Shown here: positions 7,813 through 32,343 of the stretch, in pieces
Position numbering within the stretch: position 1 is the first letter of the stretch
Layout of the letters: every line of letters starts with the position of its first letter
The notes under the pieces: model-generated
Seen by the model: only the letters and a program-made list of their open reading frames with translations
What the model was told of the DNA's origin: nothing
The model's database searches: none
Position numbers and translations under genes: made by a program
Assembly: GCA_030430495.1 (NCBI GenBank)
Contig: JAUIKM010000003.1
Span: 186,001 to 250,000 of the forward strand
DNA length: 64,000 nt
Direction of reading: 5' to 3'
Source of the DNA: a bacterium
GTDB lineage: Bacteria; Bacteroidota; Ignavibacteria; Kapaibacteriales; UBA7675

Positions 7813-10017
7813 ATGATTGACTCCATCTCTTTGGCCAATACTGCTTCATATTCACAGACTCCGCAAGTTCTGAAAGAACTGAAGTGCATCAACTATATAT
7901 TCGGGGCTAATGGCACAGGTAAGACGACCATTTCCAGAGTAATTGCCAATTACAGAGAGTACCCGGCCTGTACCGTTGCCTGGAAAGACAACACCCCCCT
8001 AGATTCTTTTGTGTACAACAGTGACTACGTAAATCGAAATTTCAATCAGTCTGTTGAAATACCGGGTGTATTTACACTTGGGCAAGACAGTATTGAACTA
8101 GAACGGAAAATTACTGAACTAAAAAATAATCTCGAAACTGCCCGCAAAGATAAAGCAAGACTTCTCATCACACTCAAAGGGAATGACAACACAAATGGCA
8201 AGACTAACGAGCTTGCTCAAGTTCAGGAGGCATTTCGGAAAGCATGTTGGAATTCAAAGCTTAGTTTTGGGGAATTGCCCAATGAAGTTTTCAGAGGGTT
8301 TCACAGTGACAGCAAGAGGTTCGTAAAAGAAGTGCTCCATCGCCACGACAACAATGATGACACTGTAGTTGAATCGTTTGAGCATCTCAAGGAGCAAGCG
8401 GAAAAACTGTTCAGCAATGAACTGAACGCCTTCCCACTTATTCGCAATCTACAGAATAAAAAGGTTCTTGGACATGAAAACAATTCGGTATTACAGATAA
8501 TCATTGTCGGCAGACAGGATATAAACATTGCATCAATGATTGAGCATCTTGACAATTATGGCTGGGTAAACACGGGGCGTCACTACTTTGAACAAAACAA
8601 CGGCATTTGTCCATTTTGCCAACAAAAAACAACAGATCAATTTCGGCGAGAAATGGAGAAGTACTTTGATGAACAATCTGAAAACAATAAAAGGCTGATT
8701 GAAGAATTGCGCGTCCAATATGAACGTGATGCTACACTACTAGTTGAAGAACTAGATGACTTTTTATCACTTAGCTCAGACTTTCTTGACAAGGAACAGC
8801 TTAGGCAGGTCACCGAAAGAGTTAAACTAAAACTGGATAAAAATTCATCGATAATATCCAAGAAGCAAGACCACCCCCACCAGAGATTTGAGTTGGACTC
8901 TCTGGAGCGGGAATTAGGCGAGATCGAATCGATTCTGGAGACCACAAACAATGAAATATCAGCCCACAATGACATTGTTCACAATGTTGATGAAAAGAGA
9001 ATGGAGATCAAATCAAAGGCATGGAGACTTGTCACACATGAGTTAGGAGCCAAAATAGATGATCACTTGGAAAGTGTAAACGACTTGGAGTCGGCTATTA
9101 GCAGTCTTAACAAAAAAATCTCGGAAAAAGATCACGAAATCAGAAATATTACACAAGACATACAAATTCTTGAGCAGCAGGTTACGGGAGTAGATTCAAC
9201 TGTCACTGAGATCAACGAACTTCTCCTTTCACTCGGATTTAACGGGTTTAAATTGAAAGTTGCTGGAAATTCAAATGCATATAAGATAGTTCGAAATGAC
9301 GGTCAGGACGCAAAGGAAACACTCAGCGAGGGCGAAAAAGCCTTTGTGACATTTCTGTATTTCCATCAATCTCTAAAAGGAAGCCATTCTCCAGATGGAA
9401 CGACCTCGGATCGAGTAGTAGTGTTTGATGATCCTGTGTCCAGTCTTGATGCAGATATACTGTTCATCGTGTGCAGGTTAATCAAGGGATCCATTGAAGA
9501 AGCAGTGCACAATACTGGCAACATCAAACAGGTCTTTGTCTTAACTCACAACATCTACTTTCACAAGGAAGTCACGTTTGATCAGAACAGAGGCGTGAAG
9601 AATAAACGAAATTCTGAAACGTTCTGGATTGTACGCAAACTCCAATCAATATCAGAAGTTGAGTACTATGAATACAATCCAATCAGATCATCTTACGAAT
9701 TACTGTGGAGTGAGATAAAAGGTGACAAGATTAATTCTCTCACGATAAGAAACACTATGAGAAGAATCCTTGAATACTATTTTAAAATGTTAGGCAGCAC
9801 CAATCTGAAAGATCTTCCCGGTAAATTTGAAGGTCAGGATAAAATGATCTGCAACTCACTCATTTCATGGTTACAATCGGGCTCCCACGATGCAGGTGAA
9901 GACTTGTATGTTAGTACTACTGATAGTGAAATTCAAAGAAATAAAGTTGTTTTTCAGCAGATATTCGTAAAAACTGGACATGAAGCTCATTATCAGATGA
10001 TGATGCGAGAGACTTGA
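7813..10017 (+). CDS. rloC: RloC-like AAA_13 ATPase, probable anticodon nuclease
   Basis: RloC proteins are SMC/Rad50-like ATPases fused to a nuclease that attacks the tRNA anticodon loop, giving abortive antiviral defence. Visible here: Walker A at residues 31-39 (GANGTGKTT), long coiled coils either side of a C-P-F-C motif at 266-269 that matches the RloC zinc hook, an ABC signature (LSEGEKAF) and Walker B (VVVFDDPVSSLD). A C-terminal domain has Arg650, Glu654 and His692, spaced much like the Arg-Glu-His triad of PrrC/RloC nucleases. The length of 734 residues fits RloC. No restriction-modification genes flank it, as known for RloC but not for PrrC. Cleavage specificity is not predictable. 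Confidence 0.82.
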   Translation: MIDSISLANTASYSQTPQVLKELKCINYIFGANGTGKTTISRVIANYREYPACTVAWKDNTPLDSFVYNSDYVNRNFNQSVEIPGVFTLGQDSIELERKITELKNNLETARKDKARLLITLKGNDNTNGKTNELAQVQEAFRKACWNSKLSFGELPNEVFRGFHSDSKRFVKEVLHRHDNNDDTVVESFEHLKEQAEKLFSNELNAFPLIRNLQNKKVLGHENNSVLQIIIVGRQDINIASMIEHLDNYGWVNTGRHYFEQNNGICPFCQQKTTDQFRREMEKYFDEQSENNKRLIEELRVQYERDATLLVEELDDFLSLSSDFLDKEQLRQVTERVKLKLDKNSSIISKKQDHPHQRFELDSLERELGEIESILETTNNEISAHNDIVHNVDEKRMEIKSKAWRLVTHELGAKIDDHLESVNDLESAISSLNKKISEKDHEIRNITQDIQILEQQVTGVDSTVTEINELLLSLGFNGFKLKVAGNSNAYKIVRNDGQDAKETLSEGEKAFVTFLYFHQSLKGSHSPDGTTSDRVVVFDDPVSSLDADILFIVCRLIKGSIEEAVHNTGNIKQVFVLTHNIYFHKEVTFDQNRGVKNKRNSETFWIVRKLQSISEVEYYEYNPIRSSYELLWSEIKGDKINSLTIRNTMRRILEYYFKMLGSTNLKDLPGKFEGQDKMICNSLISWLQSGSHDAGEDLYVSTTDSEIQRNKVVFQQIFVKTGHEAHYQMMMRET

Positions 10018-10208: not shown

Positions 10209-10233
10209 TGTGGTCAGGGAGGGAATTGAACCC
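10209..10233 (-). repeat. Left attachment core (attL): 3' fragment of tRNA-Phe
   Basis: These 25 bases match 32,319-32,343 at 24 positions (the only change is T for C at 10,227) and correspond to the acceptor and T-arm 3' side of tRNA-Phe. Beyond base 10,233 similarity to the tRNA stops, so this is not a second tRNA gene. It is the duplicated core expected after integration into a tRNA 3' end. Confidence 0.9.
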
Positions 10234-10418: not shown

Positions 10419-11855
10419 ATGACCACAAATCTCTATATTAACGAGCATTCCAAATCCAAAGAGTGCGGCATCTATGCCTACGTTCGAGGCGTGAGCAAAG
10501 GTAAAACCATTGTCATTCACACCGGGCAAAGGATTCCAGCGAAATATTGGGACTCGAAACGTCAAATTGCCAAACGGGCATATACGGGAAGCCCTGAACT
10601 GAATTCCCTCTTGTCCAAGATACGAGAATCCATCAAATCCGAGTATCGCCAAACGATCACGAATGACGAAACAGCCAGTTTTGAAAGCATCAAAAACATT
10701 CTCAAAAACTTGGTTGCCCGCATCAATGGCGAACAGGAAGAGACGGTTTCGAATCCTGAACAGGAGCAAGAAACCCACTCAACTCTGATCCAAGTAGCGG
10801 ACGACTTTCTGGAAAGCAGAAAGACGGATTTAGGGCAAGCCACCATCAAGAAGTACAAGGCACTCAGGAACATTCTGATTGACTTTGACCAGTCGCTCAA
10901 TCCACATCAGTCTTCAGAATATAGTGACAATGTCACCACTAAGACGATACCAACAGGACTTCCAATTCACCAATTCAACTTGAGGCAATTTGATTCGTTC
11001 AAGCAGTTTCTCATAGAAGAAAAAGGACACGTCAACGGCACCGTTCATAAGTATACAGCATTGCTTAAATCCCTACTTAAGTGGTCGAAGAAACGCGGTT
11101 ATCACAATTCAACGGAATTCGAAGAATTCAAAGCCAAACACGAAGCAACCGACATAGTCTATCTTTCCGAGTCAGAGCTATTCAGACTACTCGACTTCGA
11201 TTTTTCAGCCGTTCCGATAGAAGTAACCGGCGAAGACTTGCAAGCTCATCTTCGTTTCACCAAAGCAAGTTCTCTCCCACCAGACCGCGAGCAGGAAGTT
11301 CGGCAAGTCATCACCCAGCGAAAGCGAAACAAACTCAAAACGCTCGAAGGCGTCCGGGACGTTTTCTGTTTTGGCTGCTTTTCCGGGCAGCGGTTTTCAG
11401 ACCTTGCGAATCTCAAACATACTGACATCCGCAATGGCTACTGGCATTTGCGACAAGTAAAAACAAAAGACCCGCTGAAAATTCCGTTGAATCAATTTGC
11501 TTTGGAGATTCTCAGCAAGTACCGAAATGACAATAAAGCTTTGCCGACCATCAGTGCTCAGAAGTCCAATCGCTACCTGAAGCTCATCGCATCAATGGTG
11601 GGAATTGACGAACCCGTAACCATTGTCCGCTACCGAGGTTCGGAGCGAATTGAAATGACCGAACCAAAACATCAATTCATCACAACGCATACCGCTCGTC
11701 GTACGTTCGTGACCCTTTCGCTCCAACGCGGCATGCGAGCCGAAACGTGTATGGCTATAACAGGTCACCGGTCAATGAAGTCATTTGCCCGCTACATAAA
11801 AATTAGCGACACAGTGAAAGAAACCGAAATGAACCACATTTGGAGTAAAAGATGA
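10419..11855 (+). CDS. int: Tyrosine recombinase (element integrase)
   Basis: Catalyses integration and excision of the element at the tRNA-Phe 3' end. The protein has 478 residues. The N-terminal part resembles the arm-binding and SAM-like domains of Bacteroidetes integrases, and the catalytic C-terminal domain shows the active residues: Arg325 (SGQRFSDL), His424-Arg427 (HTARR), His450 (ITGHRS) and the nucleophile Tyr459 (FARYIK). AGAAGGA lies just before the ATG. Facing inward right next to the left core is the classical position for the element's own integrase. Confidence 0.95.
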   Translation: MTTNLYINEHSKSKECGIYAYVRGVSKGKTIVIHTGQRIPAKYWDSKRQIAKRAYTGSPELNSLLSKIRESIKSEYRQTITNDETASFESIKNILKNLVARINGEQEETVSNPEQEQETHSTLIQVADDFLESRKTDLGQATIKKYKALRNILIDFDQSLNPHQSSEYSDNVTTKTIPTGLPIHQFNLRQFDSFKQFLIEEKGHVNGTVHKYTALLKSLLKWSKKRGYHNSTEFEEFKAKHEATDIVYLSESELFRLLDFDFSAVPIEVTGEDLQAHLRFTKASSLPPDREQEVRQVITQRKRNKLKTLEGVRDVFCFGCFSGQRFSDLANLKHTDIRNGYWHLRQVKTKDPLKIPLNQFALEILSKYRNDNKALPTISAQKSNRYLKLIASMVGIDEPVTIVRYRGSERIEMTEPKHQFITTHTARRTFVTLSLQRGMRAETCMAITGHRSMKSFARYIKISDTVKETEMNHIWSKR

Positions 11856-12195: not shown

Positions 12196-12636
12196 ATGAG
12201 AACCATGCCATTCAAATCAAATGAAAAGAAACAATCCTACCAGCGGCACTACCGCGAGAACTACAAAAAAACTAAACGCAGAATTGGCGTTACCGTAACC
12301 ATCGACGAGTACACGTTGATACAGAAATTGGCCGGCGATCTTCGTAGCGTTCCCGCACAGTTAAAAGCTATGGCGTTTGCCTATCACACTCAGGAATATC
12401 TCGTGCCGCCAGACATCAAAAAGAAGCTCGATGAATTTGTGTACCACCTACTCAAAATCGGGAACAACATTAATCAATTGGTACGTGAGGTTCATACCGC
12501 CCGAAAGAGTCGATGGAAGTTTGGACGGGAACTGAGCGTCGGAAAAATGACACGATACGTGGAAGGCATATTAACAAAGCTGCACGCCATTGAACAATTC
12601 ATCAACGAGACGCTCACCAAGCCGCCGCGGAGATAA
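12196..12636 (+). CDS. mobC: MobC-like mobilisation accessory protein
   Basis: A 146-residue basic protein. The N-terminal part resembles a ribbon-helix-helix DNA-binding region (RRIGVTVTIDEYT). The segment HLLKIGNNINQLVREVH is the characteristic MobC motif. MobC proteins bind near oriT and help the relaxase open the strands. A second ATG three codons downstream (12,205) could be the real start. Only three bases separate its stop from the relaxase gene, so the two are co-transcribed. Confidence 0.85.
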   Translation: MRTMPFKSNEKKQSYQRHYRENYKKTKRRIGVTVTIDEYTLIQKLAGDLRSVPAQLKAMAFAYHTQEYLVPPDIKKKLDEFVYHLLKIGNNINQLVREVHTARKSRWKFGRELSVGKMTRYVEGILTKLHAIEQFINETLTKPPRR

Positions 12637-12639
12637 GGT

Positions 12640-13482
12640 ATGATAATAAAGGAACTCAGCCGAAAGTCACCGTCATTTCGACAACTGCTCAATTACATCA
12701 ATCGTGACCGTGAAACGAATGAACATGTAATCTTGCACAACTTCAATCTGCCTGACAACGCTCGTCATTCACAAATCGAAGCTCGATTTTTGGAGAATCA
12801 CGCCTACCTTTCCAAGCGTCAAAACGGTAATTCGATGTACCACACCATTGTCAGTCTGAAACGTGATCCGTCCATTGACGTGGAAGTCCAAATGCAAATA
12901 CTTCGAGAACTTACCAACCGCTACATTGACCGGCGGGCCGGAAACATGTTGTGCTACGGCAACGCACACATAGAGGCCGAGCAATTGCATTATCACGTAA
13001 TCATTTCCAGTAACGAATATCGCAGTCGGCGGCGGGTACGACTCACCAAAGCCCAATTCGCGGACATACAGAAAGACATTGAACGCTACGCCCAAGAGCG
13101 TTACCCAGAGTTGGAGTTGCCGTCACGCTACAATCGAACTGAACGAACAACCGAACGTTCAATCGGAGAAAAGGAATATCAGCTCTCACGGCGAACCGAC
13201 AGAAAAACGAAAAAAGAGCTATTGCGAGAAAAGCTCCAACAGATTTTTCGGAGCGTCGGAACGTATCAGGAACTTGAAGCCGCACTCCAAGAAGGCAACC
13301 TTTCACTCCACCAACGCGGTACAAATGTAGTGATAACGTCAGGACAAATGAAGGTTCGTCTTTCTACTATCGGACTGGAAGAAGACTACCGACGATTACA
13401 CCGGAGTTTTGAAAGGACATACCGTGAATCAGTGCCGGAATTGAATCGTGACCATGAACGAGAACACGGACTGAGTCGCTAG
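12640..13482 (+). CDS. mobA: Relaxase (MobA/VirD2-type DNA-nicking protein)
   Basis: Nicks oriT and leads the single strand into the recipient. Of 280 residues, the first 150 form the relaxase domain. Tyr18 (LLNYINRD) is the likely nucleophile, YHTIVSLKRD follows, and the metal-binding triad is in NAHIEAEQLHYHVIIS. The rest is highly charged and probably helical. At 280 residues it is short for the family and lacks a primase or helicase extension. GGAG lies seven bases before the ATG. It converges with the HTH gene to its right, stop to stop within five bases. Confidence 0.9.
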   Translation: MIIKELSRKSPSFRQLLNYINRDRETNEHVILHNFNLPDNARHSQIEARFLENHAYLSKRQNGNSMYHTIVSLKRDPSIDVEVQMQILRELTNRYIDRRAGNMLCYGNAHIEAEQLHYHVIISSNEYRSRRRVRLTKAQFADIQKDIERYAQERYPELELPSRYNRTERTTERSIGEKEYQLSRRTDRKTKKELLREKLQQIFRSVGTYQELEAALQEGNLSLHQRGTNVVITSGQMKVRLSTIGLEEDYRRLHRSFERTYRESVPELNRDHEREHGLSR

Positions 13483-13838: not shown

Positions 13839-15374
13839 CTACCGCCGTCCAATTGTTCTGAGAAAGCGTTTGTTTTTGAAATAGGGTTTAACTTTGCTGA
13901 GTTTTACAGGATTGAGCGAACGATAAAGATAGATCATTTCTCCGTCCGACATAGTCCTGACCTCTTGAGCCGTAAAGAGCCGACGTTGCATGTGTTTATC
14001 GCGTTTTGACTTGTCGGCAAAACCGGCTTCAGAATAGCTTACCGTAGCATCTCCAATCGTCTTCGAAATTCGTTCCGCACTATCAATACTCAGACCGGGC
14101 ATCACCAGCAAACTGCCGATGTTTTCGAAAATCACTTGTGCTGCTTCTTTCCCATACAAGAGACCTAATTGCTCGAATGATTGCAGCCCGACGCAAAGGC
14201 TGATCCGAAATGACCGAACATAGCTGATATACCGGTCGAGCTGCGGAACAGCCGGCATTTGAGCAAACTCGTCACAGAGGCAAAACACGTTTAGATCTTT
14301 TTTGCCCGGAGCGACCATGAGATTGTCTAACAGCACCTTGTACAAGACTGTTAATATAAAATTTAAGTGCGGTTTCGCGGGCGAAGTAATGATATAAAAA
14401 GCCGTTTTCGTGCGTCGAAATGACGGAATATCGAGATTGCTTTTTCCACTCGTCGCCGACTGCAAGGTCGGATCGTTTAACGGATCAAGAGCAATTCTGG
14501 CACTTGACGTAATAGATTTGCGAGCGTTATCGCCCTCTGATTTATAGGCAACCCACGCTCGATACAAGCGGTCTGGCAAATGAAGTTTAATGAGCTTGTC
14601 GAGCGATTCTTGCTCCGGCGTGTCGATCATATCCAAGAAGTCGACGACCGTCATGAGATTCTGACGCTCTTCGTCGAGTTCTTTCACAAGTGACAACAAA
14701 ATAGAAATGAGTTTCTCCGCCCCTGAATTAAAATAAATCTGGTCTCCACTGGATTTCGCGTAGGTCGCTTCAACCAATATCTTACTTAGCAAGCGAATCT
14801 CAGAATAGTCTTGAAAGTAGTCCAGCGGATTGAACACCACATCACTATTTGACGGATCATTGAGATTGAAACGAAGAACGCGAAAGCCGTGCTTTTTCGC
14901 GAGATAGTCACTTGTTAAGTCATACAATTCCGCTTTGGGATCGGTAATAATCTGTGTGTCTTCTGTTAAGCCGGCACAATTATAGGCGTAGGCAAACGAC
15001 GATTTGCCGCTACCGGTCGGCCCAACGATGGCCATGTGCGTCATAGCCCGTTGTTTGGAAATACGCAGTTTGTGTCCAATGAAATGTCCCTTGTTTCGCG
15101 AGGATAGAACACGACGGCGTTCACCAAATTTCAGCCAACGTGCCGCACCAAAAAGCGTATTTGGGCCACGCAACCAACGAAAAATATGCGGGAACGGCAT
15201 TGCAAGCAGTTTAACGCAAGAGACCACAAGACGCCAGAGAAGGACAACAATTCGTAGAACGATCCCAGAAATACCACCCATACGTTCGACCGTCTTTGGA
15301 AACACTTTCTCCAGACAAAAGAGTACCAAAAGTATCAATGCCGCCAGTTCCACACTTCTCCCCAAAAACGTCAT
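13839..15374 (-). CDS. Type IV coupling protein (TraG/VirD4 family)
   Basis: A hexameric ATPase that connects the relaxase-DNA complex to a secretion channel at the inner membrane. The 511-residue protein has two or three hydrophobic segments at the N-terminus. Walker A is GPTGSGKSS (about residue 118-126), then TDPKAELYD, Walker B (FCLCDEFAQMP) and the family motif near VGLQSFEQLGLLYG. Start: the ATG at 15,374 has GGAGGAGAGA directly before it. The upstream GTG lies within that ribosome-binding site. It is the only transfer ATPase found in the element. Confidence 0.93.
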   Translation of the reverse strand: MTFLGRSVELAALILLVLFCLEKVFPKTVERMGGISGIVLRIVVLLWRLVVSCVKLLAMPFPHIFRWLRGPNTLFGAARWLKFGERRRVLSSRNKGHFIGHKLRISKQRAMTHMAIVGPTGSGKSSFAYAYNCAGLTEDTQIITDPKAELYDLTSDYLAKKHGFRVLRFNLNDPSNSDVVFNPLDYFQDYSEIRLLSKILVEATYAKSSGDQIYFNSGAEKLISILLSLVKELDEERQNLMTVVDFLDMIDTPEQESLDKLIKLHLPDRLYRAWVAYKSEGDNARKSITSSARIALDPLNDPTLQSATSGKSNLDIPSFRRTKTAFYIITSPAKPHLNFILTVLYKVLLDNLMVAPGKKDLNVFCLCDEFAQMPAVPQLDRYISYVRSFRISLCVGLQSFEQLGLLYGKEAAQVIFENIGSLLVMPGLSIDSAERISKTIGDATVSYSEAGFADKSKRDKHMQRRLFTAQEVRTMSDGEMIYLYRSLNPVKLSKVKPYFKNKRFLRTIGRR

Positions 15375-15524
15375 TCTCTCCTCCACGAACCGTCAATGAA
15401 CTGTCTATTAACATTCAACAGAATACACTCAGAAACGCACCGGAACGGTTTTGACTCCAGTGCGTCTCTGGTCGGTCACATCGTTGACGCCCCGCCAAAG
15501 TGCGTCAACGAGTTATGCACTCTC

Positions 15525-26841: not shown

Positions 26842-26918
26842 TGGTGGAGGCGACGGGTGTCGAACCCGCATTGCTCGGTTGTCAAAACGGAGTGTTTTAC
26901 CTATTAAACTACACCCCC
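26842..26918 (-). tRNA. Unusual tRNA gene with aberrant anticodon arm (CCA encoded)
   Basis: Acceptor stem GGGGGTG/CGCCTCC (seven pairs, two wobble), D-arm GTTT..AAAC, T-arm GCGGG-TTCGACA-CCCGT, discriminator A and an encoded CCA (26,842-26,844) are all canonical. The anticodon arm is not: it has 19 bases instead of 17. It folds as five pairs with a 9-base loop, six with TTTGACA, or seven with TTGAC, each with one C-C mismatch. The isotype is therefore unclear (TTG, i.e. Gln, is one reading). The host tRNA-Phe lacks an encoded CCA, which fits a foreign origin for this one. It may be a defective or specialised tRNA. Confidence 0.7.
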
Positions 26919-26946
26919 GACCAACCAGAGGTGAGCGTATCGTAAC

Positions 26947-26976
26947 AAAAAACCTTGCTTTTGGGCAAGGTTTTTT
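26947..26976. terminator. Bidirectional intrinsic terminator of the antisense-like small RNA
   Basis: Perfect 12-bp arms AAAAAACCTTGC / GCAAGGTTTTTT around a 6-base loop. T-runs occur on both strands. For the leftward small RNA it is the 3' end. The odd tRNA begins 28 bases beyond it. Confidence 0.93.
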
Positions 26977-27016
26977 ATTGACAACCGAGATGTAGTTTAA
27001 CAACACTCCGTTTTAT
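26947..27016 (-). ncRNA. Candidate 70-nt small RNA complementary to the adjacent tRNA
   Basis: Transcribed leftward from a perfect consensus promoter to the terminator at 26,947-26,976. Its 5' 40 nt contain three blocks complementary to the downstream tRNA: AAAACGGAGTGTT against the 5' anticodon-arm side, TTAAACTACA against the D-arm 5' side, and CTCGGTTGTCAA against the 3' anticodon-arm side. The order is circularly permuted relative to a straight antisense copy. Whether it acts on the tRNA, on its host counterpart, or is a relic is unknown. Confidence 0.65.
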
Positions 27017-27022
27017 GCACTC

Positions 27023-27051
27023 ATTATAGGTTCGCATCAACCGTCTGTCAA
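27023..27051 (-). promoter_or_regulatory. Perfect consensus sigma-70 promoter of the small RNA
   Basis: On the minus strand TTGACA (27,051-27,046) and TATAAT (27,028-27,023) are separated by exactly 17 bases. Start of transcription is expected at about 27,016. It is the best promoter match I noticed in the window, which implies a high constitutive transcription rate. Confidence 0.85.
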
Positions 27052-27257: not shown

Positions 27258-27301
27258 CCGGAAAAGCAAGGTAGTGCAGAGCCTCCACCTTGCTTTTCCG
27301 G
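27258..27301. repeat. Perfect 15-bp inverted repeat upstream of a small cargo gene
   Basis: CCGGAAAAGCAAGGT / ACCTTGCTTTTCCGG around a 14-base loop. It shares the 11-mer ACCTTGCTTTT with the terminator at 26,947-26,976. No T-tract follows, so it is more likely a binding site, a recombination site or an RNA structure than a terminator. The rest of 27,052-27,351 holds no gene. Confidence 0.85.
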
Positions 27302-27351: not shown

Positions 27352-27717
27352 ATGACAACTATTACTGATTGGCTTTTGTACGAACTTCTACAATGTAGGT
27401 CACTCGATCTACACTTCTTTGAGTGCCTTGTTTCACGATACGATCCCGTAGAATTTTTGGATGAAGTATATCTCTATTGGGGAGCTGAAGAATCACTCAC
27501 CTTAAACCACCTCATTTACGTTGCATTTGAGAAAATTCGACAGGACTTTCTTTCTGAAAAATGTGACGAGCTGGAGCATTTAACAGAGTCCCCAGATGTC
27601 TTTGAATTGGAATACGACATCCATGCCAATTGCTTGGATAGCTCTCTCCAATTCAAAGATGACGCAGTTCAGAGCTTGTATGAAGATTGGTACTACTATA
27701 ACACCACCACTTTCTGA
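27352..27717 (+). CDS. Hypothetical small acidic protein
   Basis: 121 residues, strongly acidic (the second half is rich in Asp and Glu), with no membrane segment or signal peptide. The start is not well supported by a ribosome-binding site, but codon use is like its neighbours and the frame is open throughout. Together with the following small gene it ends at a terminator. The family is not recognised. Small acidic proteins on mobile elements are sometimes inhibitors that mimic DNA, but nothing specific supports that here. Confidence 0.6.
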   Translation: MTTITDWLLYELLQCRSLDLHFFECLVSRYDPVEFLDEVYLYWGAEESLTLNHLIYVAFEKIRQDFLSEKCDELEHLTESPDVFELEYDIHANCLDSSLQFKDDAVQSLYEDWYYYNTTTF

Positions 27718-32318: not shown

Positions 32319-32343
32319 TGTGGTCAGGGAGGGAATCGAACCC
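32319..32343 (-). repeat. Right attachment core (attR)
   Basis: The 3' end of the intact tRNA-Phe. It matches the left core 10,209-10,233 at 24 of 25 bases. The exact crossover cannot be placed within the 18 identical bases. Confidence 0.88.

Follow-up and report, generated by a model that had tools for sequence, protein, structure and literature searches.

What is a small RNA gene doing immediately upstream of a tRNA-like gene to which its product appears to be complementary? The locus lies in a 64,000-nt stretch of DNA (the window) belonging to contig C64 of a draft genome of 5.6 Mb. A preliminary description had reported a perfect promoter, a predicted RNA of approximately 70 nt, a 12-bp terminator and, 28 nt further on, a tRNA gene, and all of these are found on the minus strand at the places it gave. 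The -35 hexamer TTGACA (27046-27051) and the -10 hexamer TATAAT (27023-27028) make a 12/12 TTGACA-17-TATAAT promoter, which is the sole perfect match in the window. This promoter is E. coli-like and differs from those of the host tRNA genes, which are of the TTG-N19/20-TAnnTTTG type and point to Bacteroidota. Because of this difference, transcription of the small RNA has to be called predicted. The putative transcript (26947-27016, minus strand) would fold into a hairpin followed by a predicted intrinsic terminator (26947-26976) made of the 12-bp hairpin AAAAAACCTTGC/GCAAGGTTTTTT with T6 at its end. The fold is stable (z = -4.73; 0 of 200 shuffles were equally stable). Most of this stability comes from the terminator, and the upstream hairpin alone is unexceptional (z = -1.4). 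An Rfam search with the small RNA returned no family above the cut-off. Separately, there is a perfect 15-bp inverted repeat, CCGGAAAAGCAAGGT/ACCTTGCTTTTCCGG, at 27258-27301, which has the 11-mer AAAAGCAAGGT in common with the terminator hairpin 300 bp away.

The preliminary description listed three blocks of the small RNA that are complementary to the tRNA-like gene (26842-26918), and all three are exact. Block A (27002-27014) matches the 5' strand of the anticodon stem and the loop (13/13; target 26884-26896), block C (26978-26989) matches the loop and the 3' strand of the stem (12/12; target 26874-26885) and block B (26991-27000) matches the 5' side of the D arm (10/10; 26904-26913), with blocks and targets all on the minus strand. 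Dinucleotide shuffling of the small RNA produced a complementary run of at least 13 nt in 2 of 5000 trials for the window copy. When one script was applied to 193 distinct tRNA genes, antisense to the anticodon arm of at least 10 nt within 400 nt was found only for this tRNA-like gene and for the paralog introduced below. The small RNA is a separate upstream gene on the same strand as its target, and so it is not a cis-encoded antisense RNA in the sense of one transcribed from the opposite strand. The suggestion that it might also pair with the matching tRNA of the host was not borne out. No match between either small RNA and any host tRNA detected by the Rfam search, or the host tmRNA, exceeds 6 nt.

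The most informative evidence comes from a second copy. Searching the genome for the module uncovered a paralog on another contig (C28:14916-15091) that is 72% identical and is embedded in unrelated flanking DNA. The paralog keeps both the layout and covarying A and C blocks. TTGACA is in the same place, the spacing to the -10 hexamer (TACACT) is again 17 nt, and a 70-nt RNA (fold z = -5.75), a terminator and a tRNA-like gene follow. The terminator hairpin differs in sequence and is equally sound (AAGCCTTGC/GCGAGGCTT plus a T run). The bodies of the two tRNA-like genes are nearly invariant outside the anticodon arm, including the acceptor and D arms. The anticodon arms themselves (positions 26-48) differ at 11 of 23 positions. 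Also in the paralog, the 5' leader of the tRNA-like gene (L002 1586-1600) reads TGGTGGAG, the exact complement of that gene's own 3' end, CTCCACCA; the corresponding complement is only partial in the window copy.

Pairing of blocks A and C is standard in both copies at 22 of 25 positions, of which 14 are unchanged, seven have changed on both sides and one has become G.U. Five of the double changes are in block C, which pairs 13/13 in the paralog, and two are in block A, which pairs 10/13 there including the G.U. All three broken pairs belong to block A. Two of them, opposite tRNA positions 33 and 35, are near its tail end, in or next to the stretch that block C also covers, and the third is at the inner end (position 23). 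The stem mismatches are mirrored as well, with C.C on the tRNA-like side and G.G on the small RNA side in the two copies. The predicted energies of the cognate blocks are -18.1/-19.0 kcal/mol for the window and -15.4/-25.2 kcal/mol for the paralog, compared with -5.5 to -9.0 when partners are swapped, and 0 of 5000 shuffles of the paralog small RNA gave a run of at least 13 nt. Compensatory changes between homologues are expected of a trans-acting antisense RNA, and here there are seven double changes among 25 pairs, drawn from two homologues only. The complementarity is beyond chance, and the pairing looks selected rather than accidental because a second element carries the pair with both partners changed in step. 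This independent paralog is the strongest support for the original observation, and it supports the earlier idea of a tRNA-directed antisense RNA. The other earlier idea, a rearranged relic, is strongly disfavored because two diverged copies keep their complementarity by paired changes.

Block B behaves differently from A and C. It does not covary with the D arm, and in the paralog it forms a perfect palindrome (TGTAGTT-T-AACTACA) that mismatches the cognate tRNA at one position. For these reasons it is more likely to be the apical hairpin stem of the small RNA itself than a pairing block. This simplifies the proposed topology. The preliminary description saw a circular permutation of three blocks; the order of the blocks is real, but the permutation reduces to a two-strand inside-out hairpin, with A and C as the strands and B as the apical stem. 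In the tRNA-like RNA, anticodon stem strands A' and C' are connected via the anticodon loop. In the small RNA, their complements A and C are connected at the opposite end, and the complement of the anticodon loop is found in the two tails. Standard folding programs cannot score the full hybrid because A-A' crosses C-C'.

What kind of RNA is the target? ARAGORN names the window copy Ser-TGA (the Rfam score is 48 bits) and the paralog Thr-CGT. An elongator tRNA was taken to have an anticodon stem of 5 bp closed by a 7-nt loop, a purine at position 37 and matching identity elements. Neither name holds up against this, given C37, an anticodon stem of 6 bp (one extra pair) with a C.C mismatch, and G3:U70 and A73, which point to alanine. 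Serine identity is further contradicted by the lack of a long variable arm. Position 37 is a purine in every detected host tRNA and C in both element copies. The tRNA-like RNAs are probably poor decoders because of C37 and the 6-bp mismatched stem. Both copies have G3:U70, A73 and an encoded CCA, and the combination of G3:U70 with A73 is that of an alanine-accepting RNA. Among the detected host tRNA genes, G3:U70 is confined to tRNA-Ala and tmRNA, and in tmRNA it is the AlaRS determinant (PMC3985003). These sequence features are most naturally read as those of an RNA that would accept alanine and decode poorly. A further oddity among the tRNA genes is one at C64:43362-43432 with a 6-nt anticodon loop, to which ARAGORN assigns no amino acid and for which it shows the anticodon as 'tg'.

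We think it reasonably probable that the locus encodes a dedicated antisense small RNA paired with the downstream tRNA-like RNA, and that the two form an RNA module carried by related integrative mobilizable elements. What can be read from the DNA is the anatomy, the covariation, the predicted cognate specificity and the element context. We infer the rest: that the RNA is transcribed, that a hybrid forms in cells, that strand exchange leads to it and that the tRNA-like RNA is charged with alanine, as well as the choice of effector between the two partners and any role in addiction. Strands A and C of the small RNA are reverse complements of the anticodon stem strands joined via the apical hairpin instead of the anticodon loop, and because of this its single-stranded tails could dock on the anticodon loop. 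The two stems might then swap strands stepwise through a four-way junction. Stepwise exchange is possible because the C.C mismatch of the tRNA-like RNA and the G.G mismatch of the small RNA would become C-G pairs in the hybrid. The outcome would be an opened anticodon arm, with the alanine-type RNA inactivated or marked for cleavage. The terminator between the genes would keep the small RNA in excess, and the pair would most likely set the level of free tRNA-like RNA. The promoter, which is not of the host type, counts against an antisense pair, as does the failure of block B to act as a pairing block.

What if the small RNA is not a separate molecule at all? It could be the leader of the tRNA-like transcript, with free or nascent tRNA-like RNA pairing with the leader to alter termination, as in a feedback attenuator. 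The arrangement is suggestive: one strand, a single clear promoter, leader and gene separated by a terminator and, in full-length transcripts of both copies, a predicted cis pairing between leader and tRNA. However, inspection showed no conserved antiterminator that would compete for the terminator stem, A and C could pair together in cis only as a pseudoknot, and there may be a weak second promoter inside the terminator. We regard cis control as unlikely, although it ranks first among the rivals.

Another idea turns the relationship around, so that the tRNA-like RNA would serve as a stable decoy sequestering the small RNA, the true targets of which would be other RNAs of the element or host. 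A tRNA body would make a stable and abundant scaffold, and an anticodon arm with C37 and a 6-bp mismatched stem looks unfit for decoding. However, no second target common to both copies was found. The next best complementary sites within each element are mostly 11-14 nt (one, at C28:5864, is 16 nt) and are unrelated between copies. This makes a sponge rather improbable.

It is also conceivable that the covariation says nothing about RNA. Covariation of inverted arms is at the same time sequence identity at the DNA level, and both elements recombine at tRNA or tmRNA genes. As there are two sequences only, copying between inverted arms might in principle have produced the covariation, with recombination or gene conversion keeping the arms similar and no RNA function involved. 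However, the permuted order of the blocks makes such copying hard, as simple inversion or conversion would not maintain it. Furthermore, promoter and terminator are conserved along with the strand, one change yields a G.U pair and the apical hairpin is retained despite its imperfect tRNA match. Such a structural footprint is a quite improbable origin for the pattern.

The alanine features raise a further possibility, which is a tagless two-piece tmRNA-like complex of tRNA-like RNA and small RNA acting on stalled ribosomes. It would account for G3:U70, A73 and two RNAs joined by pairing, and the last part of the molecule is close to the 3' ends of tmRNAs in the phylum, with 93% identity across 30 nt. 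However, the host has an intact ssrA, the D stem of the tRNA-like RNA is normal, unlike that of tmRNA, and inspection revealed no tag reading frame common to the two small RNAs. The Rfam tmRNA model gives the two copies only 25.3 and 27.2 bits, below its 47-bit cut-off and similar to host tRNA-Ala. We give this possibility very little credence.

Both modules are carried by related integrative mobilizable elements, one integrated in tRNA-Phe (the window) and one in ssrA (C28). The window element extends from a 25-nt partial copy of the tRNA-Phe 3' end (10209-10233, 96%) to its right end inside the tRNA-Phe gene (32319-32343). It encodes a tyrosine integrase (10419-11855, plus strand; 48% identical to that of the C28 element), a MobC-like mobilization protein (12196-12636, plus), a MobA/VirD2-like relaxase (12640-13482, plus) and a T4SS coupling protein (13839-15386, minus), and these four proteins are common to the two elements at 33-48% identity. 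For the C28 element, the evidence for ssrA is that 30 nt of the gene's 3' end recur without change beside the integrase (C28:23722-23751, C45:2707-2736). A relaxase search found a third related mobilizable element (C49:54936-70455), which adjoins tRNA-Ser(TGA) and has a relaxase, a coupling protein and MobC without the RNA module, and a distant related element in genome G354. A gene at 27352-27717 (plus) encodes a small acidic protein that matches no Pfam family and is conserved, at 32-39% identity, on each of the three related elements. It was considered as a partner of the module and set aside, being present on the module-free C49 element too. Apart from the integrase, no protein is specific to the two module-bearing elements. 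The element genes that were examined include no cas genes; in CreTA, CreA carries CRISPR-repeat handles and the system depends on Cascade. The preliminary description had drawn attention to a RloC-like gene. It encodes a 734-aa AAA_13/PADLOC PDC-S06 protein (RloC/PrrC-like) at 7813-10017 (plus), directly left of the element end at 10209. Its proximity is what would favor a decoy or antagonist of a RloC/PrrC-type anticodon nuclease, but it is outside the element (10209-32343), and therefore no partner of the module, and comparison with the C28 contig detected no homologue beside the other module, which leaves this the least credible reading along with the tmRNA-like one.

The module is known from two copies only, both in one genome, and this too counts against the antisense-pair reading. 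No third member was found by BLASTN or covariance model in approximately 480 distinct genomes of the order and phylum, or with patterns or BLASTN in IMG/VR, 84,980 genomes, phages and plasmids, although divergent members could be missed by either survey. When a covariance model of the pair was run on 123 genomes of the order and 395 of the phylum, the two copies scored 206 bits, and ordinary tRNAs elsewhere scored no more than 58 bits. The pattern AACTACA-N65-95-GTGTAGTTTAA matched 84 stretches of IMG/VR and the 84,980 genomes, of which 0 had antisense blocks. The block B pattern found no member in 391 genomes of the class; a match in G404 is one 17-mer within an unrelated hairpin. BLASTN matches in G263 and G235 are tmRNA 3' ends, and in plasmids and phages the only ones are to tRNA-Lys of two Mycobacterium phages (77%).

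To return to the antisense pair, what might it be for? One tentative answer, to which we attach a minor share of our confidence, is an RNA-only addiction module. A stable tRNA-like RNA that accepts alanine and is harmful when free would be restrained by an inside-out antisense RNA, itself short-lived, entering via the anticodon loop, and element-specific arms would keep co-resident modules independent. Within the antisense reading this possible toxin-antitoxin role is attractive because of the mobile element, the stable type of RNA partner, the terminator that would favor antisense excess and the element-specific pairs. More generally, if the antisense pair works as proposed, it would add a tRNA-shaped partner to RNA-only control systems and an antisense hairpin topology that invades a folded RNA loop-first through strand exchange. 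It would also account for the presence on some mobile elements of tRNA-like genes unable to decode normally. Two diverged pairs in one genome provide a ready test of specificity.

Our literature searches found no described system of matching form, and the searchable papers describe no dedicated antisense RNA gene whose target is tRNA-like. In the antisense control of plasmids and type I toxins (RNAI/RNAII, Hok/Sok, SymR), the antisense RNAs are straight opposite-strand copies that meet their targets loop to loop. The pair described here resembles them in its predicted hairpin-to-hairpin recognition and in cognate specificity between co-resident elements. It differs in having its gene on the target's strand and a hairpin joined at the opposite end. 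There are also parallels with type VIII toxin-antitoxin systems, in which two adjacent small RNAs, the same strand being allowed, are proposed to include one that neutralizes the other; here the two RNA partners are encoded 28 nt apart. In CreTA, the tRNA supply is what CreT acts on, and creT is repressed by CreA together with Cascade; the RNAs of SdsR/RyeA, a type VIII system, are encoded on opposite strands (PMC10767807, PMC8501985). Unlike in either, the partner here is tRNA-like and the antisense RNA comes from a separate inside-out gene. RNAs complementary to tRNAs are also made in Streptomyces ambofaciens, where cis-antisense transcripts over normal tRNAs arise by ordinary opposite-strand transcription with no separate gene (PMC8388888), in contrast to the dedicated gene found here. 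Finally, two-piece tmRNA (PMC3985003) likewise has an alanine-type acceptor RNA paired to another RNA, whereas the present pair has no tag and no tmRNA-type D loop, and its host has a normal one-piece tmRNA.
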